Shown here one piece after another: positions 1-63,600 of a stretch of DNA of 64,000 nt. Source of the stretch: Zanthoxylum bungeanum (Eukaryota; Streptophyta; Magnoliopsida; Sapindales; Rutaceae); assembly GCA_019454045.1 (NCBI GenBank), contig SKCR01006528.1:62001-126000 (forward strand), given 5' to 3'. The position numbers were made by a program, and so were the translations under genes. The notes beneath the pieces were generated by a model, which worked only from the letters and a program-made list of their open reading frames with translations, made no database searches and was not told where the DNA came from. The stretch's first letter is position 1. Every line of letters begins with the position of its first letter.

Positions 1-564
1 CTAAAGTAATTGATAAATTATATTCTCTATGTTAACATCACATAAAGTTATTGTTACGACCTATCCAACGTCGATAATATACCCTCAAGCAATATTGCAG
101 AAGAATATCAACTCATAAAACAACTTCTACCAGTCATAACTGATTTTACAAATCACACATAGAAGAAACATGACTATTCATATATGCAAGTTGATAAAAT
201 ACAGTTTCTGGATTCATATAATCAAAAGATAAAAAGAATAATAAGATATCAATTGTATTAAGCAATAAAGTTCATCCAAGAATCAATAACATGAATATAA
301 TAGTTGAATACAAGAGTTCATCCTTAGTTTTGCCTAGTAGATTAGTTCTCCATGGAAAGAATAGACACAGCCTGAAGAGATTGCAGCAGCATCCTGTCTG
401 GTATGAAGTTTCTTCGTTCTTCAATCTCGAATTTGTGTTTGTGGCTCTTTTCATTGCTCATAATAACAAAGCACAAAATAAACTCTAATTAAGGTTAAAT
501 ACATGATAATTAAGCCAAGTTAGCGATGTTCAAAGTACTCTATCGTGCACTTATCAGAACGCGA
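1..564. other. No gene recognised; probably internal sequence of element A0
   Basis: AT-rich sequence without a convincing coding region. The two overlapping open frames near 270-490 lie on opposite strands, are about 60 codons long and resemble nothing I know. The stretch directly precedes an integrase tail on the plus strand, so it is probably decayed pol of the same old retroelement, but I cannot show this from recognisable motifs. Confidence 0.4.
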
Positions 565-863
565 AAATTCTTAAAGCTAAAACTAAGGTCTTTCATGATA
601 GTCAAATTTCACGAAAAATATTTGAAATTGGTCAAAACGTTTTGCTTTATAATTCTCGTCTTCATTTTTTTGCTGGAAAATTGAAATCCAAATGAAGTGG
701 TCCATTTATTGTGAATCACATTTACCCATATGGAGCTATTGACATTGAAAATCTTAGGGATGGTGATGTATTTAAAGTGAATGGACAACGTCTGAAATCA
801 TTTTTGGAGTGTTCAAATTTTCAAGAATCTCTTTTCCTTTCAAACCCAATGTATTGTGATTGA
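565..863 (+). pseudogene. Ty3/gypsy integrase C-terminal tail (element A0)
   Basis: The plus frame encodes the end of a Ty3/gypsy polyprotein. A run FHDSQISRKIFEIGQNVLLY is followed by YNSRLHFFAGKLKS, SGPFIVNHIYPYGAIDIEN and VFKVNGQRLKSFLE. In plant Athila/Tat elements these are the last residues of integrase, normally read as FEIGQKVLLYNSRL, WSGPF and NGQRLKPFLE. A TGA at 693-695 replaces the expected Trp before SGPF, so the frame is broken once; the natural stop is at 861-863. Everything upstream of this tail (gag, protease, reverse transcriptase) is outside the window or unrecognisable. The tail fixes A0 as plus-strand and places ORF-x and the LOG gene downstream of pol, where some Athila elements carry an env-like ORF. 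Confidence 0.85.
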
Positions 864-1326
864 TGTATTTTCTTTTCTTTTATTTTGTATTTGTCTAATT
901 TCCATTTTTTCTTGAGTTTTGCAGCATTTTTTTCTTTTCTATTTTTGTCAGAATCTTACACCCGGTTAAATAGCGGATAACGGTACTCCGTGACACTAAG
1001 TCGGTTTTTCAGTTTCTTAAAATTATTGATACCCTACAATCAAGGCATAGAAGAAACTCTTGCAAAACTCCACAATCATTTTCCTTCTCTCCCCCAAAAT
1101 ACTCTAATGAAAATTTACAAAGCACGCACCGAAAGAATGAGGCTTCTTATGATCGTTAGGTAATTGAAGCAATGGTTTGCTTGGCAGGTGAGTCATCTGA
1201 CACTTTCGTTTTTACTTGCCTGATTTAGGAAAAATCTCATATGCTTAGAAACGAAGAGCTAAGCAATTAGATGTTTGTTAAAAATATGCAAGCTGGACGT
1301 GCAACACTCATTGTTGTTCTTTAGGA
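864..1326 (+). other. Spacer between pol and the 3' ORF of A0
   Basis: Non-coding stretch between the integrase tail and ORF-x. It has a T-rich start (880-960), then a block around 960-1005 with a short complementary pair (GCGGATAACGGTACTCCGT). No gene is supported. Confidence 0.45.
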
Positions 1327-1387
1327 ATGGTGTCTGACAATCGTGAAGATAAAATTCAATTCATTAGATATAGCTCGAGTAAGGCGT
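1327..1387 (+). pseudogene. ORF-x of A0, 5' part, split by insertion of A1
   Basis: An ATG at 1327-1329 opens a frame that runs to the A1 insertion point at 1387 and resumes in frame at about 45521. The two pieces were one reading frame before A1 inserted: the left target duplicate GGCGT (1383-1387) continues into the CTTTAGATGAT that follows the right copy GGTGT (45516-45520). I do not recognise the protein. It is polar, with a short acidic and basic start. Its position between integrase and a LOG-type gene suggests a retroelement 3' ORF. A decayed relative lies at 42066-42215 in A1, at the same place relative to LOG. Confidence 0.6.
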
Positions 1388-2572
1388 TGATCGGTGGTAA
1401 ACACATATGTAACGCAAACACACGTATCGCTCAAGTAGTATAAAAATATCGGTCCCACGAGGACTTAATTTCTACTGTTGTTATTAATTATTGATACTAT
1501 TTATTTACATGTATCTAATTAAAGGGAGAAGGGAATCATTGCTTGATTGATTGGTTGAATGTGGATTTCCTAAATAAATAAATATACAAAAAAAATACTA
1601 AAGAAAATAAACAAAAGACATAAATATATAGGGTTGTGATTCCATACAATATTATTCAAATGATGAATTGATTCTCTTATATAAGTGTAATAAATCAGTT
1701 TGCTAACCTGGAACACGAAGATATGCAAAAGCCTCTTCCGATGGACAGATGCAAACACCTAGTATAACCGAATTAATCATATGTCTATGTTAACCATGTT
1801 ACCTGAATTCATTAAGTTCAAGTTCCAATTGTGGTTACCCCCGCCCGACAGGTGTATGTCTATCCTGGAAGGAAATCTACCTAAGGGTCACCATGCCCCA
1901 AGGTGAAATCGTGAGCTATTGAATCTAAGACTGAAATCAAAAATCCCTTTTCCAAGTTCATTTTAAGTTTATCACATCAATCTTATTAATGGCCAGTTAA
2001 CAAGAAGCATTAAGCTTAATATTCAATAAACAAACTAAAGTATTAAACATAATATAAAGAAAATCAATTATAAAACTCGTGAATATTGTGATTCATCACT
2101 TCCCTAGAATAAAAATAAAATGATGGGGGTTAGGGGATCCACCTTTAATATTTCAAATGTAGAAATCTCACTTTTTTGTAATATGGAAATTGTCAGTGTT
2201 ACCCATTTAAGTTAAACCAGCCATAAAGGCGGTGTTATTATTTGTCCATAAACCAGCCATATAGGCGGCAATCATCTGTCACCTAAAGACCGACCATATA
2301 GACAGTGTCACATAATGTCAAATAAATAAAACCAGCCATTAAGGCAGTATCAACTGCAATCCATATTATTAAATTACAATTCCATATTATAAATTAAGTT
2401 AGATTAATATACCTTATCATATTAAAGGTTTCACCCTTCCGCTGTGGAAATTAATTACTAAACATAAAAGAATGTAAAAACATACAAATTATTATTACTA
2501 AAAATAAAAATACATAATTAAAATACAAAAAATAAACACACAAGATATAATCCTCAAGTTCCATAATAGAAG
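1388..2572 (-). repeat. 3' LTR of A1, outer part
   Basis: It matches 43773 to about 44955 of the 5' LTR over its whole length, beginning with the same TGATCGGTGGTAAACACA block. It stops at AGAAG (2568-2572), the left target duplicate of T1; the LTR resumes at 39195. The related solo LTR S1 at 15676-17835 starts with the same block. Confidence 0.9.
2215..2349 (-). promoter_or_regulatory. Four-copy 19-bp motif in the A1-type LTR
   Basis: Four copies of a motif of the form AACCRRCCATNWNGGCGGT, at about 2215-2233, 2251-2269, 2288-2306 and 2331-2349. The same four-copy arrangement occurs in the other A1 LTR (from about 44599) and, with different spacing, in S1 (16578-16596, about 16621-16640, 16660-16678, 16723-16741). 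Flanking LTR sequence diverges more than the motif. A regulatory role, such as an enhancer in U3, is inferred from repetition and conservation only. Confidence 0.45.
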
Positions 2573-14640: not shown

Positions 14641-15675
14641 TGCCCAATTGCAAACTTTGATTTTTCTCCACTAGAATAGTCAATTAATTGCAACTTTAAT
14701 ACTTTAAATCTAAAGATAGATTTATTGTAAGTATATTAATTAAGCACTAAAGTCATCATCACATAAATCTTCCAAAGACTTTATGCTCTACTATTTGCTT
14801 AATTATGGGCTTAGTCATAATAAGTTATTTTATCAAATAAATTAACCTATTATTAATTCCCAATTGAAAATTAAATCATTTAAAACATTTAATCCAAGGA
14901 TTATATATTTAAATATTCAACCTTCAATTCTTTTTTGATTTCAATAGTCCAACTATTTAATCAATTTAATAAGGTACTATTTATTATAATGATTACAATG
15001 ATCCAATTATTTAATCAACTATAATTTTAATATTGATTACTATAATCCAATTATAAAATCAACTATCATTTTAATTCAATTATATTGATTACTATAATCC
15101 AATTATAAAATCAACTATATATTGAATGAGTTTGTATATAGTCCAACTATATATATTTTTAAAACAAAATAAATATTAGTCCAACTAATACTTTTGATTA
15201 ATGTGACGAGTAAAATATATAAATGAGCGTGTTAGCGAGTAATTGAACGAATGTTGCAAATTCAATACTTGCCTCCCACTATTTTTCGTCGAGCCTCTAA
15301 CCCTCTGGTGGAGTACTCGGGAAACCGCGTTTCCTAGTGGGCTAGGATCCTATTAAAAACACACAAACCTTGACTTTGGCCAATAAAAGCTGTATGCTAT
15401 TTAACTTAGGTAGATCTCTATGATCAATTGGATCTCATCCAATTCCTAGATCCGGTTAGGTGGACATCCAAGTCGAAACATATGTATAATGTCAATGTAT
15501 CCATTACATTTCCTAACCATTCCTCCGAATCATCTAGGCCTTGGCTTTGGCCAAAAACAAACCTAATGATTCCAGTTAAGCGGGACCCATTGACGAGGAA
15601 AGTTTCGTAATCAATGTCATTGGACAAAAAGTGATCTTGACTTGGCCAATAAAAATCACGATTGGACAAGACACC
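14641..15675 (-). other. AT-rich block and distal leader of C2
   Basis: 14700-15180 is very AT-rich where gag would be expected. It contains imperfect repeats of TACTATAATCCAATTATAAA-type sequence (around 15040 and 15093) and nothing coding. 15190-15675 matches the C1 leader near 22140-22650 (both have CTCTAACCCTCTG and GACTTTGGCCAA-type repeats) and ends at ACACC, the target duplicate of S1. Confidence 0.7.
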
Positions 15676-17835: not shown

Positions 17836-19627
17836 ACACCGATATGCAACAAAACTCTCATTATTCAAGTACATCCTTGATTGACAAAGGTCTGACTTTG
17901 GCCAAACAAACCAATGCCACTTCGGATCTTGAACAAGAATCATTCAATGGATGGATATTTGCTTAATATAAATTGAGGGATTTTCGCGTAATTGGCACCA
18001 ATTTATTTATTTATCTTTGTTAGGTCTCATCATCATAAAACCCTTAAGCATGCTTCTAAAACATCATAAAGCGCGTAAAGTAAATTAATAGTGATATGCG
18101 GAGGATACTTTACACATTGATCCTAGATCAAATCTCTCCCTTTCTCACTCAAGCTAGCACTTGTACTACTTCTACCCGTTACACTACACTTCTAAAGAAA
18201 ACCTCATATACATAGAGGGGAATAGGTGAGAAGAGAATACAAAGAGAAAGAAGGTGATAAGGCTGGACACGCAGGTCCATTTAATAAATCAAATTTATTA
18301 CAACAATTTCTAAAATTGCCCACCCATCTAATATCCATCCGATATGCGTTATTCATTCAACACAACCACGTATTCACACACATAAGCATGCTATCAATCA
18401 ATCTAATCAAATTAATTAATCTGATAATTAAGTGATCATCCAATGTTGAAACAACGATTTGATTTTGTTCGAGTCAAACTCGTTTTTTGCGAATAAGTAC
18501 TTAAAGTACGAATTCATGAATTAAATTAAACTACATCATTAAATCTAATTTAACATGTATTTAATACTAATCACTATTCAATTCTAAATTAAATATTACA
18601 CTTTTTTTAATAAACCTTTTACGATTTAAATTCCAAACTAATCGTAACGCGTCTCAAAGACCGATTAACGTCCAATGTCAATTCAATTAAAGTCCAATGG
18701 GCTTTTGATTGATTTCTTAAGGCGTGGACTTTTGGTCAACTCGGGTCAAACCGATAACCAAAGTCCAATCCGGGATTTACCCCATAAGCCCATAAATCAA
18801 TCTTGGCCCATTAGGCCCAATTGAACTTTAAAGGTTCATTAAGTCGCATTTGGGCTTTATGGTTAAGGTTTTGGGCCCAATTGGATCCAATCCATTTGGC
18901 CTAAACCAAACTTGATAAATCAAGCCCAATAGGCCCAATACAACATTTAAATCCAATTTCCAAAATTAGGCCCAAATAATTAAATTCAAAAATCCAATTT
19001 TCCCATTTAATTACCAAAGTGTATTACATGATCAATCAACTAAATCAACATTTCTAAAACACCATATTAGTCCAATTAATCATGTTTGATTCATTATCAT
19101 ATGTCCAACACACAAATTGAAAAATCAAACCCATCTACATGCTTAAAGGTCTCGGCCAAAAGAGGGATTTTGTGTCCGATTCGGTTTCAATCCAATCGAA
19201 TCCACAATCGACATCAAATCAACATCCTAAATGATTTCCAATACATCCAATGTTCAAAAATCAAAATTACCAAGACATTAGGGCATTAGTCACATTCGGC
19301 CAACTCAAAGATTTTGGGGTTTTCGTCCAATTCGAAATCCAATCCAATTCGATTCAAATTAACATCAACCTAATTGATTCCAACTCATCAAATGAATCAA
19401 AAATCAAAAATTCCAAGATCCCAAAAATCCTACACATTCGGCCAAGGTGAATAAATTGGGGAAAATTATTCCAAATCAATTTTCGTCAAATTAGTCCAAC
19501 CAAAATGAAATTAAACATGTTATAAGCATACTTAAACAAACAATTTATTCAAATCATGCTCAAATCACATTTACCCAAATTTTAAATCCCTAAAATTTCA
19601 TGCTTGCAACATTAGCTCTGATACCAT
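17836..19627 (-). other. Proximal leader of C2
   Basis: Non-coding sequence between the primer site and S1. It matches the C1 leader (about 22660-24270) in order: blocks with GACTTTGGCCAA, GCGCGTAAAGTAAA, a pyrimidine-rich ACTTCTACCC zone and several GGCCCAA repeats. Short open frames at 19086-19450 are chance frames in AT-rich sequence. Long leaders of this kind usually hold packaging and translation signals, but none is identifiable by eye. Confidence 0.75.
19615..19626 (-). other. Primer-binding site of C2
   Basis: TGGTATCAGAGC on the minus strand, one base after the end of the 5' LTR. It is complementary to the 3' end of initiator Met tRNA, the usual primer for Copia elements. Confidence 0.85.
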
Positions 19628-35647: not shown

Positions 35648-35759
35648 ATGGGATTTGTTCAGTGTGTGCCAGTGACAATCCTATCAAAGTTCGTGCAATG
35701 CATTTTTACTTAGCTGGCTCGCCAGCTGCCACCTGACTTACCTGCTGCTTCGAGCTGAG

Positions 35760-38568
35760 TTGATGATGCAGTGGACCTCGATCATGGGACGCATCCCAAT
35801 ACCTACAACCGACAACGGGGACCTCGACCCTAGGACGCATCCCAATACCGCTGACAAATTGGGCCTCGGCCCGGGGACGCATCCCCAAAATATGATGCAG
35901 TGGGTCCACGACCCCGGGACGCATCCCAATAACTGCAAATGACAACGGGGGCCTCGACCCTGGGACGCATCCCAATACCGCTGACAAAATGGGTCTCGGC
36001 CCGGGGACGCATCCCCAAAATATGATGCAGTAGGTCCACGACCCTGGGACGCATCCCAATAACTGCAACCGACAACGGGGGCCTCGACCCTAGGACGCAT
36101 CCCAATACCGCTGACAAAATGGGCCTCGGCCCGGGGACACATCCCAAAAAATATGATGTAGTGGGCATCTCGACCCTATGACGCATCCCGGAACTACAAC
36201 CGACAACGGGGGGTACCTCGACCCAATACCGCTGACAATAGGTACCTCGCCTGAAACTGATAATGATGTAGTAGGCACCTCGACCCTGGGCACGTATCTC
36301 GACCAGAACTACAACCGACAATGGGGGCACCTCGACCCTGGGCACGCATCTCGACCCAATACCGCTGACAATAGGGACCTCGCCCTCAAACTGATAATGA
36401 TGTAGTGGGCTCCTCGACCCTGGGCACGCATCTCGGCCCCGAACTACAACCGACAACGGGGGCACCTCGACTCTGGGCGCGCATCTTGACCCAATACCGC
36501 TGAAAATAGGGACCTCGCCCTGAATATGATGATGTAGTGGGCACCTCAACCCTGGGCGCGCATCTCGACCCGGAACTACAACCGACAACGGGGGCATCTC
36601 GACCCTGGGCACGCATCTCGACCCAATACCGCTGACAAAATAGGCCTCGGCCCGGGGACACATCCCAAAAAATATGATGTAGTGGGCATCTCGACCCTAG
36701 GACGCATCCCGGAACTACAACCGACAACGGGGGTACCTCGACCCAATACCGCTGACAATAGGTACCTCGCCCTGAAACTGATAATGATGTAGTAGGCACC
36801 TCGACCCTGGGCACGTATCTCGACCCAGAACTACAACCGACAATGGGGGCACCTCGACCCTGGGCACGCATCTCGACCCAATACCGCTGACAATAGGGAC
36901 CTCGCCCTCAAACTGATAATGATGTAGTGGGCTCCTCGACCCTGGGCACGCATCTCGGCCCCGAACTACAACCGACAACGGGGGCACCTCGACTCTGGGC
37001 ACGCATCTTGACCCAATACCGCTGAAAATAGGGACCTCGCCCTGAATATGATGATGTGTAGTGGGCACCTCAACCCTGGCGGGCGCGCATCTCGACCCGG
37101 AACTACAACCGACAACGGGGGCATCTCGACCCTGGGCACGCATCTCGACCCAATACCGCTGACAATAGGGACCTCACCCTGAATGATGATGGTAGTGGGC
37201 ACCTCGACCCTGGGACTCATCCCCAAGCGAATACTGATATGGGCCTCGCCCGCCTCATACTGACACTGATGTGGGCCTCGCCCTCAAATTAATACTGATG
37301 TGGGCCTCGCCCTCAAACTGATACTGATGTGGGCCTCGCCCCCCAGACTAATACTGATGTGGGCCTCGCCCCAAAACTGATACTGATTTGGGCCTCGCCC
37401 TCATACTGACACTGATGTGGGCCTCGCCCCCAAATTAATACTGATGTGGGCCTCGCCCCAAGACTGATACTGATGTGGGCCTCGTCCCCAGACTAATACT
37501 GATGTGGGCCTCGCCCCAAAACTGATACTGATATGGGCCTCGCCCTCATACTGACACTAATGTGGGCCTCGCCCCCAAATTAATACTGATGTGGGCCTCA
37601 ACCCTGAACTGATACTGATGTGGGCCTCGACCCCAAATGATACGGATATGGGCCTCGACCCCAAACTGATACGGATATGGCCTCTCCCCAAACTGATACT
37701 GATATGGGCCTCGCCCCAAACTGATACTCGTATGGGCCTCGCCCCCAGACTGATACTGATATGGGCCTCGCCCCCATGCTGATACTAATATGGGCCTCTC
37801 CCCAAACTGATGCTGATGTGATGTAGGCTTCGGCCCTGGGACTCATCCCCGCAACTGATACTGATGATGAATGGGTCTCAGCCCTAGGACTGATACTGAT
37901 GATAATATGGGTCTCGACCCTGGGACTCATACTGATGTGATATAGGGCTCGGCCCTGGGACTCATCCCTGACACTGATGCTGATGCGATGTGGGCCTCGA
38001 CCTGGGACTCATCCCTACAACTGATGTGATGTAGGCCTCGGCCCTGGGACTCATCCTAATACTGATGCTAATGTGATATGGGCCTCAACCCTGGGAAGCA
38101 TCCCCAAACTACTGATAATGATGTGGGTCTCAACCCTGAGTGTCATACCCGGTAAAGACTGATAGTGATATGGGCCTCAACCCACAGAGTGCCATACCCG
38201 GCAAGGACTGATAATGATGTGGGCCTCGCCCTTAGAGTTCCATACTCAACAAAGTCTGATTATGATGTGGGCCTCAACCCGCAGAGTGTCATACCCAGTA
38301 GAACTGATACTAAACTGATGTGGGCCTCACCCCCAGAATGCCTTACCCGGGAGATACTGATATGAACTGATGTGGGTCTCGCTCTCAAAATGCCATACTC
38401 GGTAAAACTGATACTAAACTGATGTAGGCCTCGCCCAGAATGCCATACCCGGCAGGTATTGATATGAACTGATGATGTGTGGGTCTCGCCCCCAGAATGC
38501 CATATTTGGCGAAACTAATACTGATGATGATGTGGGTCTCACCCCCAGAGTGTCATACTCGGTAGACT
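35760..38568. repeat. T1 minisatellite arrays of unit 2
   Basis: Same three array types and order as 27640-30075. The 130-bp array holds a local duplication: the block starting near 36151 recurs near 36672, an offset of 521 bp that the unit 1 array lacks. The 50-60-bp array lacks the TGTCTCCATACCCGG modules seen in unit 1. The array stops at about 38568 in the middle of a unit and joins LTR-C directly. Confidence 0.85.
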
Positions 38569-39194: not shown

Positions 39195-39789
39195 AGAAGC
39201 CTTAAGGAAAGTATGAAATTTACAAATGATTGCCTTGATATTTATAGGTAAAATTTTTCCTCCACCAAACATGTCACCAAATCCTCCACTAAACATGTAA
39301 GCATGTTTGGTGGAAGTTTGACAATTTTCATTTTTCTATTTTTTTTTTAAAATGACTTTAATAATTACATATAACATACTTCCAGATGTTTTATCAATAT
39401 CGGTCATGAAAACTTTCGAATTCGAAATTATTATGAACGTCACAGTTGTATATCTGTGAGTCTTCTTTAGTTTGGAACTTGAATCACATTAATCCGATAT
39501 CGGAGTAGAGAGTTATGGCCAAAATACGAACATTACACAAAGTTGAAATTTCCGAAATTGTACTTCGTTAGAACGCCATTTCAAGTTTCCAACCTCCAAA
39601 ATCCAAATTTCAAATCCAATTTTTTCCCTTATTTGTTCCATATTTCATCCTGAATGATTTCATTGAGTCCCGATTTTATTTTATCTATAAAATAAACAAA
39701 AATATCAAAACATAAATCAAAAACTCGGGAAACTATACAAAATATTATGTCAAAGAGGCAGTAAATATTGATATATTTTCCGCTCATCA
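39195..39789 (-). repeat. 3' LTR of A1, inner part
   Basis: It matches 44949-45515 of the 5' LTR. It starts with AGAAG, the duplicate shared with 2568-2572, and ends CGCTCATCA next to the polypurine tract. Together with 1388-2572 it rebuilds a complete LTR. Confidence 0.88.
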
Positions 39790-39801
39790 CACCCCCAAAC
39801 C
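39790..39801 (-). other. Polypurine tract of A1
   Basis: GGTTTGGGGGTG on the minus strand directly before the LTR start TGATGAGCG. Confidence 0.75.
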
Positions 39802-41272
39802 TAACATTTTGCTAGTCCTTGAGCAAAATAATAAAATAAAATACAATAAACAACTTTAAAATAAAAATAAACTAAGCCACTTTCGTAAGGATCACGGTTG
39901 CATTTAGCGTATGCAACAAGCCTTTAAACCCCTAGGTGTCCCTAGTGGACGAGATGTATTATCGTGAGGGCTTACAATGAGGATACCCAAAAACATCAAA
40001 TGCACACAAAAACAAAAAGATAAAACACACAAAACAAGTTAGTAACTAAACAAGTGAAACTCTTATCCAAGTTAATAGTTGTTTTCTTTCTTTCTAAATT
40101 ACCAAATAAGTAAATTCTCCGATTATATTTTTACCATTCTTCATAAACACAACCAACAAAGTATTAATCAAATCATTGTGCCCACAATATTCATAAGTGT
40201 AGTTGAAAAAAGAGTAATATTTTGTTCCTAAAGTTATATCAGAATTCACACCTTTTTAGCAATGAATTTTTTTTTTTTTTGTATAATCAACATCTTCAAT
40301 CCATGTAGCGAGTTTTGGGACAGTGACTCCCAAACCAGTTGGCTTTAGGGCACTAGGTGTTAAAACACCACTACAGACTTAATTACTCGAATCTCGGATG
40401 TGTCTTATTTTTTAATTAATATCTTTAATCCATATAGCGAGCTTTGGGTCAGTGACTCTTAAACCAATTGGCTTTAGGGCACTAGGTGTTAAGACACCCA
40501 TACGGACTTAATTACTCGGATCTCAGATGTTTAAAGGTTCTACCGTTTGACGCGAACAATCTCTGCTTATTGAGGCAAGACACCCGGTTACTAAGTAGAA
40601 ATTTTATTATTATTAACTCAAGCTTTTCCGTTTGACGCGAACAATCACTGCTTACTGAGGCAAAATGTCCGTTTACTAAGTAAAAGCATGGTTAATTAAT
40701 TATATACATATTTGTTTTTCTTTTTTTTTTCCTTTTTTTTTATTCCATTGCTTTTAGATGTTTCCTCCAATAAACTGGAGCACTGAATATTACAAACTTT
40801 TCACTTACAACTCGTGTTCGTATGTTACCATGCATGTTGATAATACTTATCAACTGAGCATATGAAGATCTAATTTTAATCAGTATTATGGAGAATTCAC
40901 AAATTTAAATAATTCAAAAGGAAATAAACAAAAATTAACTTGTTACGAATTAGTTTGAGATACGTCTCAGGAGTGGAAACTCCTTACTCATCTATATAAA
41001 AACATCAATTCCACTTGATTAGTAAAGTTAAAAACACAAAAACAAAATATATATTTTTTTTTTTTTTTATTTTTTGAATTTTTGAATTTTTGAAAAATTT
41101 TGACTAGAAACCAAGCAAAAACAACGCAACAAAAAAAATTAAAAATAAGATACTAATCAATTATTCCCTTCCCCCAAACCTATTTGAGACATTGTCCCCA
41201 ATGTCTAAAAAGTAGAAGAAGAGTTTCGAAGACAGTACCTGGTTAGCTGAAATTCTACATCTAAAAAGAAAA
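39802..41272 (-). other. 3' non-coding region of A1 with duplicated modules
   Basis: Two modules are each present twice. One has CACTAGGTGTTAAAACACC-type sequence followed by AATTACTCG (about 40300-40400 and 40430-40530). The other has GTTTGACGCGAACAATC then CTGCTTA(T/C)TGAGGCAA and TTACTAAGTA (about 40545-40610 and 40628-40688). The same modules, also paired, occur in A0 at about 47320-47765 on the other strand. Near 41160-41215, GACATTGGGGACAATGTCTC and GGTTTGGGGG-type sequence resemble the tract found after pol in Athila-like elements. Runs of T at 40268, 40722 and 41050. No ORF. Confidence 0.7.
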
Positions 41273-41881
41273 TTAAAGGTTAAGATCCAGATTTATCCGA
41301 CGCTCCTTACCACGATCATTATCAGACCAGTTAATCTTGGAAAGGATAAGGTCAATTTGTGCTTCAAAGGCTAAGAGTTGGTCAATTAAATCATGGGTTG
41401 TTCTGGCAGTGAAGATGATATCTTTTACAGGTTTTGAAATTAACCCATTTCTCTGGGCATCATCAAGAAGCACACAAAGAAAATCATAAAATCCATCAAC
41501 ATTATACAGTCCAATCGGTTTCTGGTGTTGTTAAAGTTCACCAAAGATAGCACTGTAAACATTTCCTCCATCGTGCCAAAGCCATCTGGCAAAGCAATAA
41601 AATCATCAGCACGGTTAATCATTTCAACAAGTCGTTCGGACATACCTGGCACAATGCATTCATCTCCGTTTGATGGTCCTATAAGATTTGCCTCTGCCAA
41701 AGGTTTTTGGATGATTCCCATAACTTGACTTCCTCCTTCCCAATTCTTGTGTTGCCGCAACGAATTCTGGTTTAGAACCAACACTAGTACCGCAAAACAC
41801 ACAAATGTTTACAACTCGTAATTCTTGAAGTTGCTTCCAATTTTTTTTATGTATTTCTTTCTCAAATCTGGATGTCTTCAA
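41273..41881 (-). pseudogene. LOG-like: LOG-type cytokinin-activating enzyme, copy in A1, broken
   Basis: LOG enzymes hydrolyse cytokinin riboside 5'-monophosphates to free cytokinin bases in the plant cytosol. Here the minus strand reads NICVFCGTSVGSKPEF at the N-terminus, then GIIQKPLAEANLIG, MSERLVEM, FIALPDGFGTMEEMFTVLS and, after a frameshift near 41525-41530, KPIGLYNVDGFYDFL, DDAQRNGLISKPVKDIIF and a tail ending NLDLNL. Two lesions are clear: about 33 codons are missing between ATQELG and GSQVMGII (the Rossmann glycine region), and there is a one-base frameshift after SLVNFNN. The nucleotide-binding motif PGGxGTxxE is altered to PDGFGTMEE. No introns, whereas plant LOG genes have several, so it derives from a processed copy. 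It sits inside A1, between gag-like ORF and polypurine tract. Confidence 0.9.
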
Positions 41882-42065
41882 GAGTGCAATAACGAGCTGA
41901 ATTTATAGATCCTGAAAAGGGGTGAGTAATAATAGCACTATTACTTGCCAAATGACAATTATCAACTAAACAATAAAATATATCGTGAAAGTAAAAAAGT
42001 CTGGATCCTGTCGGCGAAAATTAAGGAAATCACAACCGAAAAGCAAATGAAAGCAATTATTTAAG

Positions 42066-42215
42066 GCAACAGAATTGTGTATGCAATACGCCACTCGCTT
42101 ACTATATAAATCCATTAGGATGTGTCTCAATAATCCATTCCTTACTCAGCCATCACTAATAAATCAAATCTCATCCTTGTGATTGCCAAACACCATTCCT
42201 CTTATCTTGCTCTGC
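42066..42215 (-). pseudogene. ORF-x remnant in A1
   Basis: The minus strand here aligns with the start of A0 ORF-x (1327-1387 and 45521-45600). Both have GGAATGGTGT at the start, CATCCTA(A/G)TGGA in the middle and GTATACACAATT-like sequence at the end (here GCATACACAATTC). Several deletions and stops destroy the frame. Its place between the gag-like ORF and LOG shows that A0 and A1 share gene order. Unknown function. Confidence 0.6.
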
Positions 42216-42385
42216 CTTAAATGCTCAGTTTGTGTTTTTCCCTAAAAATATCACACAAAATTAAAAACTCTACAACATGTATACACAAAATAAAACATAA
42301 ATTGCAATAATAAAAATTGCATGGGTTGCCTCCCTTCTAGTGCTAAATTTTTCATCTTCAGCCAGACGTTCCTGAAGTCCATCTA

Positions 42386-43642
42386 TCAAGGAGGTCTCAG
42401 CGTGGTTTTGGATGTCCGATTAGAGACAATCCCATGAGCGTTGCTTTTGAAGGGTCTCTTCCAACAGTAAAATGGCAAAAAGAATTTTGTCTCATTGAGT
42501 GCTTGTGCCACCTTTTTAAACTTTGTCGCTCCAGTGGTTCCTGAAAAGAAAGAAAGAAAATCAGGAGGTCTAGTATGGTGCTTGACTTTGAATCGAAGTT
42601 CCATTCTGTCAAGCTTCTGGGCGGTGTCTTTGATTTGTACTCCCCAAAACAGTGATGTTTCTCCTGAATGCATGAGATCTTTAATATGGTCAGACATTTG
42701 CTCCTCCATTTGTTTTGCTTCTTGCTCCATCTTTTCTTCACAGATGTATTTTAAGATTTCTTTGTTCAGCTCTTCATCTGTCATCTGTGAAATGCATGCT
42801 CCATATGTGTCAACCTGAGGATGTAAGGATGTGTCTAATTATAGGTTTTTATCCTTCGTGGTTTGTATGAATGGTTCGGGTAGCTCTTCTTCAAACATCA
42901 GTGTAATGCATGCTCCAAGATCTTCATTTTGAGGATGCAGAGTTTCATCCTCACTTGTTGCTGTAGTTGGTACAAACAGCTCTGATTCTTGTTCCTCATC
43001 AGAGTCCAATGAATAATAAAGATAAAATTGAGATTCTGCTGGTTCGGGCTCCTGAACTGATACCTCGGATTCTTGATACTGCTCAGCCTCTTCCTCTGTT
43101 AAGGTGTCATCATGAAATTCTTGGTACTCGAAGGCTTCGTCAGTGTTATTTGAATTTGTTCCGTGAGGTATGTAGTTCTGGTTGTTGATTATTTGTCTCA
43201 ATTCATTTACCATCCTCTGTAAGGTTTTGATTTGATCCAGAAACGTTGCATCATGTTCAGCTTCCTGTTTCTCGAGCCTGTTTATCAATTTTCTTCCCAC
43301 CGATGGCTTTGGTCCTTGAATATCGTAGGTTGATGGTGGATAAGATGAAAAATATAGTTCAGTGAAATATGCTAGTTCATTATATGAAGGTCTTTGATAG
43401 TTCTTCCACCCTGAATTATAGAGGTATATGCATTGATCGCTCGGGTGGTTAGCATCATATATCTCACATCTCCCCATTGCGTTCTGAAATGGTTGGGAAA
43501 ATGTTGTATTGATTGGTTCTGACATCCAGTTATAATTGGGCAGGACAACAGGCCTAAAAAAATCGGATTGCTGCTCCCTGATATGGGGTATATCATTTCT
43601 TTATAAAGCTCGTAATTCTTCCATCGCCCAAAAATGTTCCAT
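42386..43642 (-). pseudogene. Gag-like ORF of A1 with two in-frame stops
   Basis: One frame runs from an ATG at 43642 to a stop at 42386 (419 codons) and is interrupted by TAA after MEEL-RAL and by a stop at 42839-42841. It reads FSQPFQNAMGRCEIYDANHP and SDQC, a zinc-knuckle-like CxxxDxxHPSDxC stretch as in Athila-type Gag, followed by a region with YNELAYF and a coiled-coil-like QEAEHDATFLDQIKTLQRMV (about residue 130-160). An acidic, glutamate-rich part follows. A segment LHPQxxDLGACI..M..EEL occurs twice, the second copy just after the second stop. I call it Gag-like from position (first ORF after the primer site) and the Cys/His cluster; it could equally be an uncharacterised ORF1. No pol follows. 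Downstream, near 42330, the GGGAGGCAACCC signature common behind pol of Athila-like elements is present. Confidence 0.6.
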
Positions 43643-43748
43643 TTTCCACCACCTGAAAATTAAAAGAAAAAAATTACAGATAAAAATAAAGAAAATTAGA
43701 TACAAGTAAATTAGATAGCTTCAAAATTAATAACACAAGAAAAATAAG

Positions 43749-43766
43749 TCTCTGGCAACGGCGCCA
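43749..43766 (-). other. Primer-binding site of A1
   Basis: TGGCGCCGTTGCCAGAGA on the minus strand, six bases beyond the end of the 5' LTR. Athila elements are known to use this TGGCGCCGTTGCCGGGGA-type site (tRNA-Asp). Confidence 0.8.
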
Positions 43767-43772
43767 AAAACT

Positions 43773-45515
43773 TGATCGGTGGTAAACACACACGTAATGC
43801 AAGTGCACGTATCGCTCAAGTTGTATAAAAATATCGATCCCACGAGGCCTTAATTTCTAATGTTGTTATTAATTATTGAGACTATTTATTTACAGGTATC
43901 TAATTTAAGGGAGAATGGAATGATTGCTTGATTGATTGGTTGAATGTGGATTTGCTAAATAAATAAATACACAAAAGAAAATACTAAAGAAAATAAACAA
44001 AAGACACAAATATCTAGGGTTGTGATTCCACACAATATTATTCTAAAGATGAATTGATTCTCTTATATATGTGTAATAAATCAGTTTGCTAACCTAGAAC
44101 ACGAAGATATACAAAAGCCTCTTCCGATGGTTAGAAGCAAACACCCAGTATAACCCAATTAATCATATGTCTATGTTAATCAATTTACCTGAATTCATTA
44201 AGTTCAAGTTCCAATTGTGGCTACCCCCGCCCGACAAGTGTATTTCTATCCTGGAATGAAATCTACCTAAGGGTCACCATGCCTCAAGGTGACATCGTGA
44301 GCTATTGAATCTAAGGCTGAAACCTAAAATCCATTTTCCAAGTTCATTTTAAGTTTACCACATCAATCTTATTAATGGCCAGTTAACAAGAAGCATTAAA
44401 CTTAAGATTCAATAAACAAACTAAAGTATTAAACATAATATAAAGAAAATCAATTATAAAACTCGTGAATATTGTGCTTCATCACCTCCCTAGAATAAAA
44501 ATAAAATATTGGGGTTAGGGGATCCACATTTAATATTTCAAATGTAGAAATCTCACTTTATTATAATATGGAAATTGTCAGTGTTACCCATTTAAGTCAA
44601 ACCAGCCATAAAGGCGGTGTTATTATTTATCCATAAACCAGCCATATAGGCGGTAATCATCTGTCACCTAAAGACCGACCATATAAGCAATTTCACATTA
44701 TGTCAAATAAATAAAATCAGCCATTAAGGCAGTTTCAACTTCAATCTATATTTACAATTCCCATATTATAAATTAAGTGAGATTAATCTACCTTATCGTA
44801 TTAAAGGTTTCACCCTTCCCCCAGCGGAAATTAATTACTAAACATAAAATAAAGTAAAAACACACAAATTATTATTACTAAAAATAAAAATATATAATTA
44901 AAATATAGAAAATAAACACACAAGATACAATCATCAAGTTCCTTAATAGAAGCCTTAAGGAAAGTATGAAATTTACAAATTAAATGGCTTCGTATTTATA
45001 GGAAAAAATTTGCCTCCACCAATTTCTCCACCAAATATGTGGAAGTTTGACAATTTTCATTTTTCTATTTTATTTTTTTGAAAATGACTTTAATAATTAC
45101 ACATAACATTCTTCCAGATGTTTCATCAATTTCGGTCATGATAGAATTCGAAATTATTATGAACGTCAAAGTTATAGATCTTTGAGTCTTCTTTAGTCTG
45201 GAACTTGAATCACCTCAATCCGATATCGGAGTAGAAAGTTATGGCCAAAATACGAACATTACGCAAAGTTGAAATTTCCGAAATTGTACTTTGTTAGAAC
45301 GCCATTTCAAGTTTCCAACCTCCAAAATCCAAATATCAAATCCAGTTTTTGCTCTTATTTGTTCCATATTTCGTCCTGAATGATTTCATTGAGTCCCGAT
45401 TTTATTTAATCTGTAAAATAAATAAAAACACATCAAAACATTCATAAAACTCGGGAAACTATACAAAATATTATGTCAAATGGGCGGTAAATATTGATAT
45501 ATTTTTCGCTCATCA
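43773..45515 (-). repeat. 5' LTR of A1
   Basis: 1743 bp, complete, plus-strand ends TGATCGG and CTCATCA. It contains the four-copy AACCRRCCAT motif from about 44599. It is followed at 45516-45520 by the right target duplicate GGTGT. Confidence 0.9.
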
Positions 45516-45849
45516 GGTGTCTTTAGATGATATATCATTGACTCTTGAGAAGCATCCTAGTGGACATATTCATAGAGTGATTCACAATTTGTATACACAA
45601 TTTCAAAAAGGAAAAAATCAATACAGTCTCGGGAATCTGACTTTAAAAGACCCTATTTGCCAATTTATAAGAAAATTGGATGGGAAGCATATCCTCGACC
45701 CATATAGGGCATTCAAGCCATTACTAGAAGTAAAACCAGAGGAAGATGTGAGCCACAATCACAACTACCAGTACATATTGTTTCAATTTGTTGCTTTGAT
45801 TTTATTTACTTTAAGTTACTGTTTGATTTACTTGAATTTACTGTTTTGA
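45516..45849 (+). pseudogene. ORF-x of A0, 3' part
   Basis: It continues the frame begun at 1327. Recognisable text: LDDISLTLEKHPSGHIHRVI, then LYTQFQKGKNQYSLGNLTLK, RKLDGKHILDPYRAFKPLLE and a hydrophobic C-terminus that may be readthrough into non-coding sequence. Reassembled length would be about 130 codons. I know no family for it. It is predicted soluble, rich in His, Lys and Leu. The original end may lie near KPEED, because sequence after about 45760 is T-rich. It lies 180 bp upstream of the LOG copy, on the same strand. Confidence 0.55.
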
Positions 45850-46033
45850 TTTCCTTTACTTTACTTTTACCGACAGTATCTAAACTTTTTGACTTTCATA
45901 GTCTATTTTACTGTTTATCTGACAATTGTCATTTTGTAGGTACTAGTGCTTTTATTACTCACCATTTTTTAGGATCCGTAAAACAAATCGTCATTTCTCT
46001 CTTCGATACATCTAGATAAAAAAAGGGAACAAA

Positions 46034-46687
46034 ATGGAGAAAACTTCAAGAAGATGAGTCACTAATATTTGTGTGTTTTGTGGAACTAGCTGTGGAACTA
46101 AATCAGAGTTTGTTGAAGCTGTAAAAGAATTGGATAGAGTTATGGTGGAAAGAAACATACATTTAGTATATGAAGGTGGCAATCTTGGATTGATGGGATG
46201 TGTTTCAAAGGCTATGCAAGAAAGTGGCAGTCAAGTTTTGGGGATCATTCCAAAACCTTTGGCAGACGAAAACCTCATTGGAAAATCAAATGGAGAAAAA
46301 TACATTGTCTCAGGTATGTCTAAAAGACTTACTGAAATGATTAATTATGTTGACGCTTTTATTGCTTTACCAGGTGGGTTGGACACGTTGGAGGAAGTAT
46401 TTACAGTTGCTTCATTGACGAACTTGAACATTCACCGATAACCCATTGGACTACTTAATGTTGATCACTTTTTTGATTTTCTTTTAATATTTCTTGAGGA
46501 TTCCAAAAGACTCAGGTTCATTTCGAAATCGGTAAAAGATATCGTCCTAATTGTAAGAAAAGCTGATGAATTAATTGATTAACTCTTAGCTTATGAACCA
46601 AAAATCGACAGGGTTCTTTCCAAGTTGAACTTGTCTGATAACGATTGTGGTAAGAAGCGTAGAGTGGACTTGAATCTTAATCTGTAA
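46034..46687 (+). pseudogene. LOG-like: LOG-type cytokinin-activating enzyme, full-length copy in A0, three stops
   Basis: The frame from ATG 46034 to TAA 46685-46687 is exactly 654 bp (217 codons), the usual LOG length. It is free of frameshifts and introns but has stops at codon 8 (TGA), at 46439-46441 and in the ID-LLAY segment. Motifs in order: NICVFCGTSCGTKSEF, VYEGGNLGLMG (first Gly of YGGGSxGLMG changed to Glu), VLGIIPKPLADENLIG, MSKRLTEM, AFIALPGGLDTLEEVF (PGGxGTxxE changed to PGGLDTLEE), PIGLLNVDHFFDFL and a tail ending DLNLNL as in the A1 copy. An Arg in the MSKR stretch and the Glu of TLEE, catalytic in LOGs, are kept. Upstream sequence, including GCT(A/T)TTATTACTCACC, is shared with A1, so both descend from one capture. 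Probably dead as protein. Confidence 0.92.
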
Positions 46688-48073
46688 CTTTTTTCTTTTA
46701 AATAGTCGTAGATATAATTATCAATTCCACATTAACCAGGTGATGTCTTCTAAACTCTACTTCTTCTTATTCAGACATTGGGGACAATATCTCAATTTGG
46801 TTGGGGGAGGGGATAGTTGACTAGATAGTTTTCATTTTTATATTTCATTGTTGTATTTTTCTTTTTAAAAAAAAAATTCCGTTTTTTATTGTTATTTTAT
46901 TAAAAAAACATTATGTTGTTTTTGCTTTGTTATTATTTTGTGTAAAATAAAATAAAAAATATTTTGTGTTTTTATTCAAAAAAATACACACAAACGAACA
47001 ACAAATTTTTGGCTAACCAATTGGAATTGTTGTTCAGAGATGGCAATATAAGAAGTTTTCGCTCCTGAGATGCATTTCAATGTTTCGTAACAAGTTAATT
47101 TTGTTTCTTTCTTTTTGAATCATTTAAATTTATAAATTCTCCATAATATTGATTAAATTTGATATTCATATACTTATTTGACAGGTATTATCAACATACA
47201 CGGTAATATATAATCATAGGTTCTAAGTGAAAATTTTATAATTTTCTGTTCTCTAGTTTATTGGAGGTAGCACCTAAAGACAGTGGAATTTATATTTTAA
47301 TCCAAAAAAAAAACTAAACATACTTTTACTTAGTAACCGGACATCTTGCCTCAGCAAGCAGTGGTTGTTCGCGTAAATCGGTAGAGCTTGAGTTAGTTAA
47401 AAAAAATAGATAATAATAATAGTGTTTTTACTTAGTAATCAGACATTTTGCCCCAGCAAGCAGTGATTATTCACGTAAAAAGGTAGAGCTTCAATTGTTA
47501 TTATTAAAAAAATGTGTTTGAATAAGTTCAATTTCATAGTCTCTCTAACTCGAGCAATTAAGTCTGTATGGGTGTTTTAACACTTATTGCCCTAAGGCCA
47601 ACTGGTCTGGGAGTCACTGGTCCAAAGCTCGTTACATGAATTAAAGATAAAATTTAAGAAAATCAAACACTTCTTCTTGTTAAGATATGAATATGTAGTG
47701 CCCTAAAGCCAAATGGTTTGGGAGTCACTGGCTTAAAGTCCGTTACAAGGATTGAAGATGTATTATTAAATTTTTTTTAAAAAAAAACTATTTTTGTAAA
47801 TAAATAAATTGTCATTGCCAAAAGGTGAACTCTAATATAATTTTAGGACAAAAATATTATTCTCTTTTCAACAAGACCTATGAATATTGTGGGCACAATG
47901 AATTGATTGATACTTTATTTTATGTGTGCATGGAAGAATGGTAAAAAGTACGGGAGAATTTACTTATTCGATTATTTAGAAAGAAATAAAATAATTATTA
48001 ACTTGGATAAAAAAATTTCTTTTTAGTTTTCTCTCAAATTACAAGGGACTAGTAATAAGCTGGTTAGGGCTGT
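46688..48073 (+). other. 3' non-coding region of A0 with duplicated modules
   Basis: Counterpart of 39802-41272. It begins with GACATTGGGGACAATATCTC and GGTTGGGGGAGGGGA-type sequence near 46775-46815, then holds paired modules with CAAGCAGTG(G/A)TT(G/A)TTC(G/A)CGT (about 47325-47395 and 47428-47490) and GGGAGTCACTGG (about 47520-47640 and 47690-47760). No ORF is supported. Confidence 0.7.
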
Positions 48074-48620
48074 GATGAATACTAAAAAGTGAACATTTAT
48101 TAAAAGAAAAATTAATTATTTTACACTTGTAGTTTCATTAATCCCCTTAATTTAGCATATTTGTAAAATAATAATTAAATTTATATTTAATATATTTTTA
48201 TTGCGATTTTTATTTATTATCTATGTGAAATAATACTTTGGATGCATAACTAGAAAAATGGACGTGACATTTGGATTTTGGAGGCCAGAAACTTAAAAGG
48301 GCGTTCAAATAGTGTACAAATTCAGAAATTCCAACCCTGCGTAATTTGCATATTTTGGCCATAACCTTTTACTCTGATATCGGATTGAGGCGGTTCTAGT
48401 TCAATATGAAAGAAAATTCAAATATCTAAAACTTTGATGTGTACAAGATGTTCTAGTTCAGAATTTTTCAAGGCATAAATTGATGAAAAATCCAAAGTGT
48501 GTTATATGTAATTATTAAAGACAAAAACAAGAAGAAATATATATATATATATGAAATGTGGGAAATGACATCCACATTTCGGTGGAATGTTGTTTCCCTC
48601 AAATCATATAATTATAAATT
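48074..48620 (+). repeat. Start of the A0 3' LTR, truncated
   Basis: Begins TGATGAATACT and aligns with the sense strand of the A1 LTR: TTTGGATTTTGGAGG, GGCGTTC, TTTTGGCCATAAC and GATATCGGATTGAGG occur in the same order. The expected end (ACCACCGATCA) is not present downstream, so the LTR is truncated somewhere after about 48620. An AT microsatellite lies at about 48538-48552. Confidence 0.6.
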
Positions 48621-61324: not shown

Positions 61325-63600
61325 ATTTCTAGAGTGAGAGTAATGATCTTACTATAAACCGATGCCCATTAGAAGCTAGCGACTTTATTTCATTGATCAT
61401 ATCAATACCACAAGCTTGGAAATCATGACAATATTTTACTAATTATGCACAATCTATCTCCATAGTCAACCAATAGAACCCATGTTGTACGATTTCCCTA
61501 TTCAACCTGCTCATATGTTGTATGCACACCCCCGCATAGATTTCTTCTATCATTTTCTTAGCGTTTCTTCTTTTAGAAACTTCAGTTGTACCCCATTAGT
61601 CTGTTGCTTATATAGATCTCCCCTTAATCTTACAAACTATGAAGTTAATTTATAGATCGCTATTTTGTCATTCTTACAAGCACATTTTGGAAATTCCTTA
61701 TGATCCAAGTAGTTCTGGATATCATAATACCAATGCTTTCCGTCATTGACTTCACCGTTCATAACCTTCCCTATTTTATAGCTAGGCTTACTAGCAGTAC
61801 TCAATACTAAAGGCTTTATGGTTAGTTTTTCCGAATTTTCCCAGGCTGAAGCTAAGCTAGCTAAGGCATTGAAGGCATCCGTCATTTGGTTGTCTTCTAG
61901 TGGTAGATGTCGGAGCATACAGCCTGAGATATTTTATAACAAGGCTCTAAGGTGAAACATATAGGGTTATAATTTGTCTTCTTTCAACTCCCATTCTCCC
62001 AATACTTACCGAATCACCATCATTGAGTCACCATATATCTCGGCGTCCTTCGCCCCCAAGGCTATCAGTGCTTCTAACCCAAAGATACAGGCTTCATATT
62101 CAGCTATATTGTTGGTAACTGAAAATGTTAGCCTCTTAGTCATAGGCAAGGTTTCTCTTCTCGAAGTTATCAGAACTATCCTTATCCATACGCCTTTGCA
62201 TTTTATAGCCACATCGAAGTACATCTTCCATCCTTGAATAGTTATTGCTTTTATCTCCTCATCTGGGAACTCAATCTCTTACCTGTCTCCTTTGGTTGTT
62301 GTACCAAGAATTCTGCCATAACACGCCCTTTAATCACTTTCTTGGTAATGTATTTCACATCGAATTCAATCAGCAATACCAACCATCTTCCCAGCTGACT
62401 TTAAGTACCTTAATAGATTCTCCTTCATGACCACTTGTATTATATAGGACTGAATGTAGTGCCATTACTTTTTGCAGACCCATACTACTGCTAAATAAAT
62501 TTGCTCCAGTTCTTGGTAGTGGGCCTCATATGGTAGCATCTTCTTACTGAGATAATAGGCAGGATGTTCCACTACAGTGTCATTTTTTTGTACTAGCATC
62601 GCCCTCAAGGCATTGGATTTTATGGCCAAGTATAATACTAAGGGCTTGCCGGGTCTCGACGGCTTCAAGACTGGTGGGTTAATCAGGTATTGCTTAATCT
62701 TCTCAAAGGCTTCTTGGTACTGCTCATTCCATTCCATAGGTTGATTCTTCCTGAAGAACTTGAAAATTGGTTCACATACCGATGTTAGCTTAGTAATAAA
62801 ACAAATGATATATTATATTTTCCCCAAAAATATCCTTACTTTTTTTTTTTCAATTTTTGGTGTCGGCATCTCCGTTATCACTTTGATTCTTACATGATTG
62901 ACTTATATTCCTCTATTTCCCACTATGTCTCCCAACAAATCTCCGGATGTGACCCTAAATACGCATTATTAGGATTAAGCATGAGATTGTATATGTCCAC
63001 CATTTGAAGGAATTTCTCTAAGCACACCATATGGTCCTCTCTAGTATCTGATTTTACCATTCTATCTTCCTTATGCATCAAATTGTGGAATATGGTGGTA
63101 GTCATTCATTAATAAGTAGCCCCTATATTTTTAACTCGAAAGGAATCTTTGTAAATGTATGTTCTTTATTCTGTGTTGAGAGTTTTCTTGTGTTTGTCCT
63201 CGTCTGCCATAAAGATCTGGTTATTCCCTGAAAACCCATCCGCAAATGAGTACATTACTGACAGTGCTGCGTTATCCACCAGGACATTTATGTAAGGCAA
63301 AGAGAAGTCATCTTTTGGACATGTTTTGTTTAGATTTTGTAGTCTACGAATAGCCACTATAGGTATTTAACTACTTCTAAGAACCCTACCTCCTCTTGCT
63401 TTTGTATTGACTCTTTGATCTTTCCAGCCCATTCTGATCTCATTCTTGTAGCTTATGTTTCACATGCCTCATATTTGGATATGTTGAAATTACATGTTGT
63501 GTTATGCTCATTTTTACTCCGAGCATGTCGTTATAAAACGAGGAGAAAACTTTTGCATATTTTCTTAATAGGCTATCCAATTATTTCCTCTCATTAGGGG
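61325..63600 (-). pseudogene. Tat-lineage Ty3/gypsy pol, decayed: RT, RNase H, second RNase H, integrase start
   Basis: On the minus strand from right to left: WAGKIKESIQKQEEVGFLEV (RT start, about 63360-63430); LNKTCPKDDFSLPYINVLVD and SFADGFSGNNQI (63166-63357, RT palm with its Asp); then EDRMVKSDTRED (63020-63075), where the normal YVDDMIVKS has lost the YVDD tetrad; RNase H WNEQYQEAFEKIKQYLINPP and YYLSKKMLPYEAHY (62465-62737); the additional RNase H found only in Tat elements, MYFDVA, NNIAEYEACIFGLEAL and IYGDSMMV (62006-62224), with D, E and D in place; linker DGKHWYYDIQNYL (61637-61918); integrase zinc-finger region GVCIQHMS and FYWLTMEIDC (about 61400-61560) and SNGHRFIV (about 61345), where the core begins and the match ends. 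Frameshifts and stops separate nearly every block. The family may be related to T1. Confidence 0.85.

Follow-up and report, generated by a model that had tools for sequence, protein, structure and literature searches.

The window, a stretch of 64,000 nucleotides from Zanthoxylum bungeanum (contig SKCR01006528.1), holds two LOG-like genes that are both intronless and both broken, and that belong to two members, termed here A0 and A1, of one Athila-like LTR retrotransposon family. The insertion of A1, a distinct member of the family, lies within the NABP gene of A0: the NABP codons are split (codons to ~128 at 1037-1387, from ~130 at 45516-45726), a 5-bp duplication is present (GGCGT left, GGTGT right, with one mismatch), and A1 LTR ends lie on both sides. 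The features are listed below, where L numbers denote loci elsewhere in the genome.

510..848, plus: A0 integrase C-terminal piece (tblastn, 42% to L022 integrase)
1037..1387, plus: A0 NABP-like ORF-x, first part, ~codons 9-128 (tblastn, blastn)
1383..1387, no strand: A1 target-site duplication, left copy GGCGT (sequence)
1388..2268, minus: A1 3′ LTR, end part (blastn with L010 and L012)
39207..39788, minus: A1 3′ LTR, start part (blastn with L010 and L012)
39789..41262, minus: A1 non-coding 3′ part, modules duplicated (sequence comparison)
41273..41881, minus: A1 LOG-like gene, broken (Pfam PF03641 match)
42428..43645, minus: A1 gag-derived ORF of orf419 type, broken (60% to L010 orf419)
43749..43766, minus: A1 primer binding site, presumed tRNA-Asp type (motif scan)
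43775..45515, minus: A1 5′ LTR (sequence comparison)
45516..45520, no strand: A1 target-site duplication, right copy GGTGT (sequence)
45516..45726, plus: A0 NABP-like ORF-x, remainder (62% to L012 NABP residues 130-198)
46034..46687, plus: A0 LOG-like gene with three internal stops (Pfam PF03641 match)
47030..48007, plus: A0 non-coding 3′ part, modules duplicated (sequence comparison)
48254..48523, plus: A0 3′ LTR, part (72.7% to L010 LTR positions 164-432)

The A1 3′ LTR is split by nested insertions between its two listed parts, and it differs from the 5′ LTR by a K2P distance of 0.096 (443 aligned sites). An earlier note on this DNA had recognized the two intronless LOG-type genes, and both give Pfam PF03641 matches (3.2e-18 for A0, 3.6e-16 for A1). 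Neither is unbroken: the A0 gene keeps one reading frame, of which codons 8, 136, 183 and 218 are stops, and its PGGxGT motif reads PGGLDT (G to D), while the A1 gene carries frameshifts and apparently also a deletion. The note also placed the A0 gene downstream of an integrase tail; the integrase piece of A0 is at 510-848. Its claim that the two elements have common flanks stands for the non-coding stretch upstream of LOG (75% identity between A0 and A1) and for the 3′ modules, but not for ORF-x, which was found in A0 only; the upstream ORF of A1 is instead the gag-derived orf419 (E 1.7e-5 against gag).

We then turn to the whole genome (3.96 Gb), where the LOG active-site pattern gave 10,868 matches and its reversed control gave 0, thus chance similarity is excluded; a host-type pattern, taken at another LOG motif, gave 22 matches. 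With a host LOG protein as query, element-like copies swamp the result (150 scored of 40,750 candidates, at 51-58% identity). Our LOG-selected set (L009-L028) consists of 20 of the 150 matches scored in another search. NABP lies upstream of LOG in 16 of the 20, and RNase H plus integrase in three (L022, L019, L025); in L022 the RT_RNaseH match (5.6e-33) is followed downstream by rve (7e-14), with the same order in the other two, so that RT-RNase H precedes integrase as in Ty3/gypsy LTR retrotransposons. Non-autonomous types without pol retain LOG. The 3′ flank has 27,168 sites in the genome, and among 40 copies chosen by this flank (the first 41 places minus one at a contig start) LOG is present in 37, eight of the 40 having a full-length open frame, and absent from three (L045, L050, L068). 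Other elements of this genome carry LOG too, against the note's second refuting condition. Two independent insertions of a host retrocopy, an origin that the note had itself considered, are ruled out by the LTRs, the PBS and thousands of copies in one shared context. The note's proposal of an Athila-like family that spread with LOG in the env-like position is borne out by these features together with the 5-bp target-site duplications and, on the pol side, by the upstream RNase H and integrase.

The locus L010 has 2.0-kb LTRs, a PBS and a clean target-site duplication, CCGAC. By motif scan, a TGGCGCC site follows the LTR end in A1 and in 11 of the 20 LOG-selected loci, several of the remaining stretches stopping short of a 5′ LTR end. 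We take these sites to be of tRNA-Asp type, and a PBS of this type is typical of Athila. The family is labelled Athila-like on the PBS, the gene order and its general sequence habit, and not on a reverse transcriptase tree. Athila (Ty3/gypsy, OTA clade) shares with it the PBS type, the order PR-RT-RH-IN-extra ORFs and a long non-coding 3′ part, but the extra ORFs here encode NABP-like and LOG proteins. The Pfam Athila ORF-1 was found in none of 15 ORFs scanned; it is found in 16% of Athila elements and is therefore an optional feature (PMC6317226).

ORF-x encodes a zinc-finger protein that matches Pfam Viral_NABP and Carla_C4, with scores of 26.9 (cut-off 23) and 22.7 (cut-off 20.9) for the L012 protein and 29.6 and 27.7 for P0245; the L023 protein passes for Viral_NABP (24.5) and falls just under the cut-off for Carla_C4 (20.5). 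Among 44 relatives picked from the 120 listed, 35 match Viral_NABP and 33 match Carla_C4 at E 0.001. With a mean pLDDT of 58.8, the structure model of P0245 falls short of the quality that a fold search requires. The NABPs of carlaviruses and their relatives (PF05515, PF01623) have in common with the element protein a basic stretch and a Cys-rich finger, whereas the latter has ~182 residues with conserved N- and C-terminal parts of its own and lies in plant genomes. Our literature searches on NABP in retrotransposons found no report.

Selection on LOG was followed in the 37 flank-selected copies, L045, L050 and L068 being left out as they have no LOG. Variants found in at least six copies have a pN/pS of 0.20 and private variants 0.62. 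In the wrong frames the class of at least six copies ends at 0.57 and 2.08, frame +1 also falling somewhat (0.83 to 0.57). For NABP variants the shared and private figures are 0.09 and 1.43, from one stretch each of 11 of the 16 NABP-bearing loci. One reading is that LOG is a captured passenger and that the open frames reflect recent copying from a master element that happened to succeed; it fits with the 29 of 37 LOG-bearing copies that are not fully open, with the three of 40 that lack the gene, and with the near absence of contrast in transversions alone (private 0.51 vs. 0.47 for variants shared by at least three copies; 0.49 vs. 0.46 without the divergent rows L039 and L075). Against this hitchhiking, dN/dS between LOG lineages is 0.17-0.28 at dS 0.7-1.3, there are zero stop changes among the variants in at least six copies, and pol-less types still carry the gene, which makes the passenger reading very improbable. 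Among 18 open frames of the LOG-selected set, most dS classes give 0.22-0.39, with 1.06 at dS 0.02-0.05 (one pair) and 0.62 at dS >0.3 (17 pairs). LOG is under purifying selection within the element family, though transitions carry the contrast between private and shared variants.

The element LOG has the LOG fold, with 45-48% identity to two Arabidopsis LOG structures (48% to At2g37210), and bears the family marks PF03641 and PGGxGTxxE. Its residues and tails were counted on the rows of a tree built from 45 relatives picked among 120 listed, 17 open copies from this genome plus A0, and two Arabidopsis LOGs as the only host anchor. Fifty-seven derived rows, including several lineages of this genome, form one group (98/85). 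In CgLOG numbering, the catalytic Arg99 is kept in 51 of these rows (Gln in five, Cys in one) and Glu122 in 56, whereas of the residues at the prenyl site His97 is kept in 11 of 57 and Lys100 and Glu125 in none; all three are kept in the six basal rows and in 3/3 reference LOGs. A C-terminal LxLxL occurs in 45 of the 57 derived rows, within a basic tail, the tails being compared among derived and basal rows. In the six basal rows, two of them from Xanthoceras, the pocket is still of the ancestral type, and five of the six lack LxLxL. These rows, and the anchoring by two host LOGs, would suit repeated, independent capture of LOG by distinct element families or within distinct plant lineages. 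We find this rather unlikely, as the 57 derived rows group together and share the loss of the pocket, and as two pairs of LOG and NABP matches from distant lineages lie on equal-sized contigs (8723 and 4511), which suggests the same linked pair.

The element LOG might also be an ordinary cytokinin activator, local cytokinin promoting division or meristem identity and with it the chances of transposition in germ-line-forming cells. The LOG fold, the catalytic Arg and Glu and the PGGxGTxxE retained in most rows, and the selection on the protein are all consistent with this. However, the replacement of Lys100 and Glu125 in every derived row, and of His97 in 46 of 57, argues against it, and against the note's suggestion that the element may have altered host hormone levels, taken as activation of host cytokinin. 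The prenyl-site residues were themselves inferred, never solved with substrate, and vary among LOG types (PMC4979012, PMC8234997), so cytokinin activity may persist. We regard an ordinary activator as unlikely; since the hormone-binding pocket has changed, the job of the element LOG is probably not simply hormone making.

Beyond the documented family, architecture, copy number, selection and residue changes, the explanation we consider probable is an old element-owned pair in an Athila-like LTR family, composed of NABP and a nucleotide phosphoribohydrolase of changed specificity. The window LOGs would then be decayed copies of this accessory gene. Pol-bearing members read integrase, NABP-like ORF, LOG, non-coding stretch and 3′ LTR; non-autonomous derivatives, in which the central part of pol is missing or a gag remnant is all that is left, still carry LOG. 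An origin as a processed copy is plausible because LOG has no introns, and this intronless copy was probably captured once, long before the present bursts; selection has kept it during propagation, its descendants being the several lineages of this genome. From its catalytic Arg, Glu and PGGxGTxxE, the protein is most likely still a 5′-mononucleotide phosphoribohydrolase, with a base pocket that would no longer fit the prenyl side chain and presumably takes another substrate. It may act with the NABP-like protein, both perhaps expressed from spliced RNA, in the life cycle of the element and to its benefit, possibly by changing, in cells that divide, the nucleotide signals or the control exerted by the host. 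More tentatively, the pair could be a cassette for counter-defence or host manipulation, joining a virus-type zinc-finger NABP (a candidate silencing suppressor) to a LOG-derived hydrolase with lost cytokinin specificity and a basic, EAR-like LxLxL tail, kept very long across rosids in more than ten thousand copies; LOG may then act in the nucleus, removing a regulatory nucleotide and/or recruiting a corepressor.

The note knew of no such family, yet a YgdH/LOG domain has been reported in LTR elements of Citrus, also of the Rutaceae, and Populus (Steinbauerova et al. 2011, as cited in PMC9289625). These are likewise Gypsy-type LTR elements with a LOG domain, but the part of the report available to us gives the presence of the domain only; the partner gene, the scale, the selection test and the active-site comparison with its pocket change were not found in it. 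The same source describes Gypsy elements of Phalaenopsis that carry AlkB, an m6A demethylase, similarly a cellular-type enzyme as an extra ORF, though a different one whose activity was assayed, while the element LOG is known here from sequence (PMC9289625). Plant LONELY GUY proteins (At2g37210 LOG3, At5g11950 LOG8) share the fold, PGGxGTxxE and the catalytic Arg/Glu with the element LOG, which differs in being intronless and element-borne with its prenyl-site residues replaced. Most ‘LOG genes’ found by similarity in such genomes may be retrotransposon copies, a warning for annotation; among mapped LOG loci, some of those that carry nonsense mutations, such as the LOG7 locus (PMC7527552), are perhaps copies of this kind too. 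With its partner gene, selection signal and active-site change, the family offers a clear example of a plant retrotransposon that owns an enzyme of a hormone pathway, and it is relevant to the question of why elements of the Athila type retain additional ORFs.

The two LOG (LONELY GUY-type) places in the window translate into LOG-like proteins broken by stops or frameshifts, and their longest translated pieces match PF03641 in a Pfam search (3.6e-16 for A1, 41273-41881, minus strand; 3.2e-18 for A0, 46034-46687, plus strand). The A0 piece has Arabidopsis At2g37210 as its closest solved structure; the A0 gene carries PGGLDT in place of the PGGxGT motif and holds stops at codons 8, 136, 183 and 218; as read from their sequence, both genes are relics. 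The layout of the two Athila-like elements was mapped with family members from other places in the genome, as listed here.

45515-43775, minus strand: A1 5′ LTR, mapped with family members
A1, minus strand: order 5′ LTR, PBS, gag-derived ORF, LOG, non-coding region, 3′ LTR
39788 (start) and 1388 (end), minus strand: A1 3′ LTR, nested insertions between, mapped with family members
1037-1387 and 45516-45726: two halves of the A0 NABP gene (ORF-x), split by A1
GGCGT/GGTGT: 5-bp target duplication flanking A1 inside the A0 NABP gene
48254-48523: A0 LTR piece, beyond the A0 LOG and the shared 3′ modules

The mapped nesting and the shared element parts make A0 and A1 two members of one family. The claim of the earlier note that both LOGs belong to a single element family is thus borne out by the LTRs, the shared 3′ modules, the 5-bp duplication and the nesting of A1 in A0, and the alternative of two retrocopies is ruled out by this nested layout of family members. 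The A1 LTR pieces are K2P 0.096 apart (443 sites). At 15667-17840 (minus strand) lies an isolated, almost complete LTR of this family, which is probably a solo LTR in the nest interrupting A1. The window also holds long tandem arrays (35706-38300; repeat units roughly 29 and 135 bases long) and a weak reverse-transcriptase/RNase H piece of a different element (62269-62965, minus strand).

A plastid matK insertion in this genome has its closest match in Zanthoxylum calcicola (86% over 62% of the query), followed by other Rutaceae, which places the host in Rutaceae, probably in Zanthoxylum. In the genome, a degenerate 35-base pattern of the LOG active site gave 10,868 exact matches (5,432 + 5,436), and a 29-base pattern of the 3′ flank gave 27,168 with at most one mismatch. 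A host-type LOG pattern (VADMHQRKAEM, at most one mismatch) gave 22; the two LOG patterns represent different motifs and differ in kind, yet the gap between their counts is large. The reversed control of the active-site pattern and the controls of the other two gave no match. A LOG family search scored the best 150 of 47,331 first-look candidates, all above the cut-off, and 147 had no stop in the matched stretch, in a selection that favours good LOGs.

Twenty loci of 6.6-10 kb, picked by LOG score from these 150, were compared for architecture. PR, RT-RNase H and integrase lie ahead of NABP and LOG in three (L019, L022, L025), whose analysed stretches stop short of gag. Eight keep gag, PR and an integrase tail but lack the central part of pol (L011, L012, L013, L015, L017, L020, L021, L028), four are of the gag-derived orf419 type without NABP (L009, L010, L014, L027), and the remaining five, being tandem, interrupted or cut, were left out of the types. 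NABP is found upstream of LOG in 16 of the 20 by Pfam and comparison. L010 is a complete short element with 2.0-kb LTRs, PBS and the TSD CCGAC. In L012, L015, L020, L028 and others an internal deletion has brought the integrase tail directly after the protease end, giving a non-autonomous type, and in L018, L023 and L024 NABP-LOG units recur inside one stretch. A rate of 1.3e-8 substitutions per site per year is used for LTR dating, at which the LTR stretches of eight loci (K2P 0.010-0.050) are 0.4-1.9 My old. At 3.92e-9, the rate applied to Z. bungeanum in PMC8417289, they are 1.3-6.4 My old.

A second sample, independent of LOG, took 40 of the first 41 places among the flank matches listed, and is skewed to younger copies because exact matches head the listing. 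LOG lies upstream of the flank in 37 of these copies, and is full-length and open in eight. The other three comprise one orf419 type and two with unrelated filler (L045, L050), an apparent exchange of cargo.

Variants were counted in the 37 LOG rows from these copies. Those private to one copy gave pN/pS 0.62 (229 N, 110 S, 20 stop changes), and those in at least six copies 0.20 (28 N, 42 S, no stops; bootstrap 0.12-0.31); the wrong-frame controls gave 0.83 and 0.57 in frame +1, and 1.16 and 2.08 in frame +2. The contrast is carried by transitions (0.98 private, 0.18 shared), since transversions in the same 37 rows barely shift (0.51 to 0.43). Two divergent rows hold part of the private variants; without them the private and shared values are 1.19 and 0.19 for transitions, and 0.49 and 0.46 for transversions. 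Between LOG lineages within the genome at dS 0.7-1.3, dN/dS is 0.17-0.28, the broken A0 included. For NABP (11 rows, LOG-selected loci), pN/pS is 1.43 for private variants and 0.09 for those in at least three copies.

In several copies the NABP product passes the Pfam thresholds of Viral_NABP and Carla_C4. Its sequence, which includes the stretch YAKKRRAK and a finger rich in Cys, is highly conserved; its structure model is of poor quality. Carlavirus proteins of this kind can suppress silencing. Upstream of the LOG start, eight of ten rows viewed have TTTCAGG, which resembles a splice acceptor; this placement would fit a spliced RNA.

The structure model of an element LOG (mean pLDDT 86.4) matches At2g37210 at 48% identity. 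With the CgLOG positions of PMC4979012 as reference, the derived group of the LOG tree retains Arg99 in 51 and Glu122 in 56 of 57 rows, His97 in 11, and Lys100 and Glu125 in none; His97, Lys100 and Glu125 are all retained in the six basal rows and the three reference LOGs. LxLxL near the C-terminal end, usually preceded by a basic cluster, occurs in 45 of the 57 derived and one of the six basal rows, a comparison of these two groups only, as the reference chains are truncated ahead of their ends. LxLxL resembles an EAR motif. Because one row, P0036, has both the retained pocket and the tail, the tail may predate the pocket change. As the prenyl site of LOG is described as uncertain and variable in the review PMC8234997, we infer only a changed specificity of the element LOG and do not assert loss of cytokinin activity as fact.

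Searched against proteins, a single element LOG has 7,524 relatives; the 120 listed reach 87% identity on public contigs and include relatives at 50-60% in Xanthoceras, Populus, Reevesia (many) and Diplodiscus. In a midpoint-rooted tree of 66 rows, Z. bungeanum copies are spread over several lineages among these relatives, separate from Arabidopsis and Pseudomonas LOGs. NABP has 849 relatives; Populus, Acer, Xanthoceras, Rhamnella and Orobanche are represented among the best 120, which were listed. Contigs of equal size (8723 and 4511) carry two of the LOG and two of the NABP matches, which suggests that the pair is linked in other plants too.

YgdH (LOG) domains have been reported for LTR-element consensuses from two Citrus species and P. 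trichocarpa (PMC9289625, citing Steinbauerova 2011). Searches of openly licensed papers, and passages of PMC7264820, PMC11963269 and PMC6317226, revealed no account of the pair formed by NABP and LOG, of its scale in this genome or of the active-site change. The LOG domain in LTR elements is therefore already known, and the pair, its scale and the active-site change are apparently new. Given the high LOG copy number in this genome, the LOG7 locus with a nonsense mutation in a Zanthoxylum selection scan, as reported in PMC7527552, may be a retrotransposon copy.
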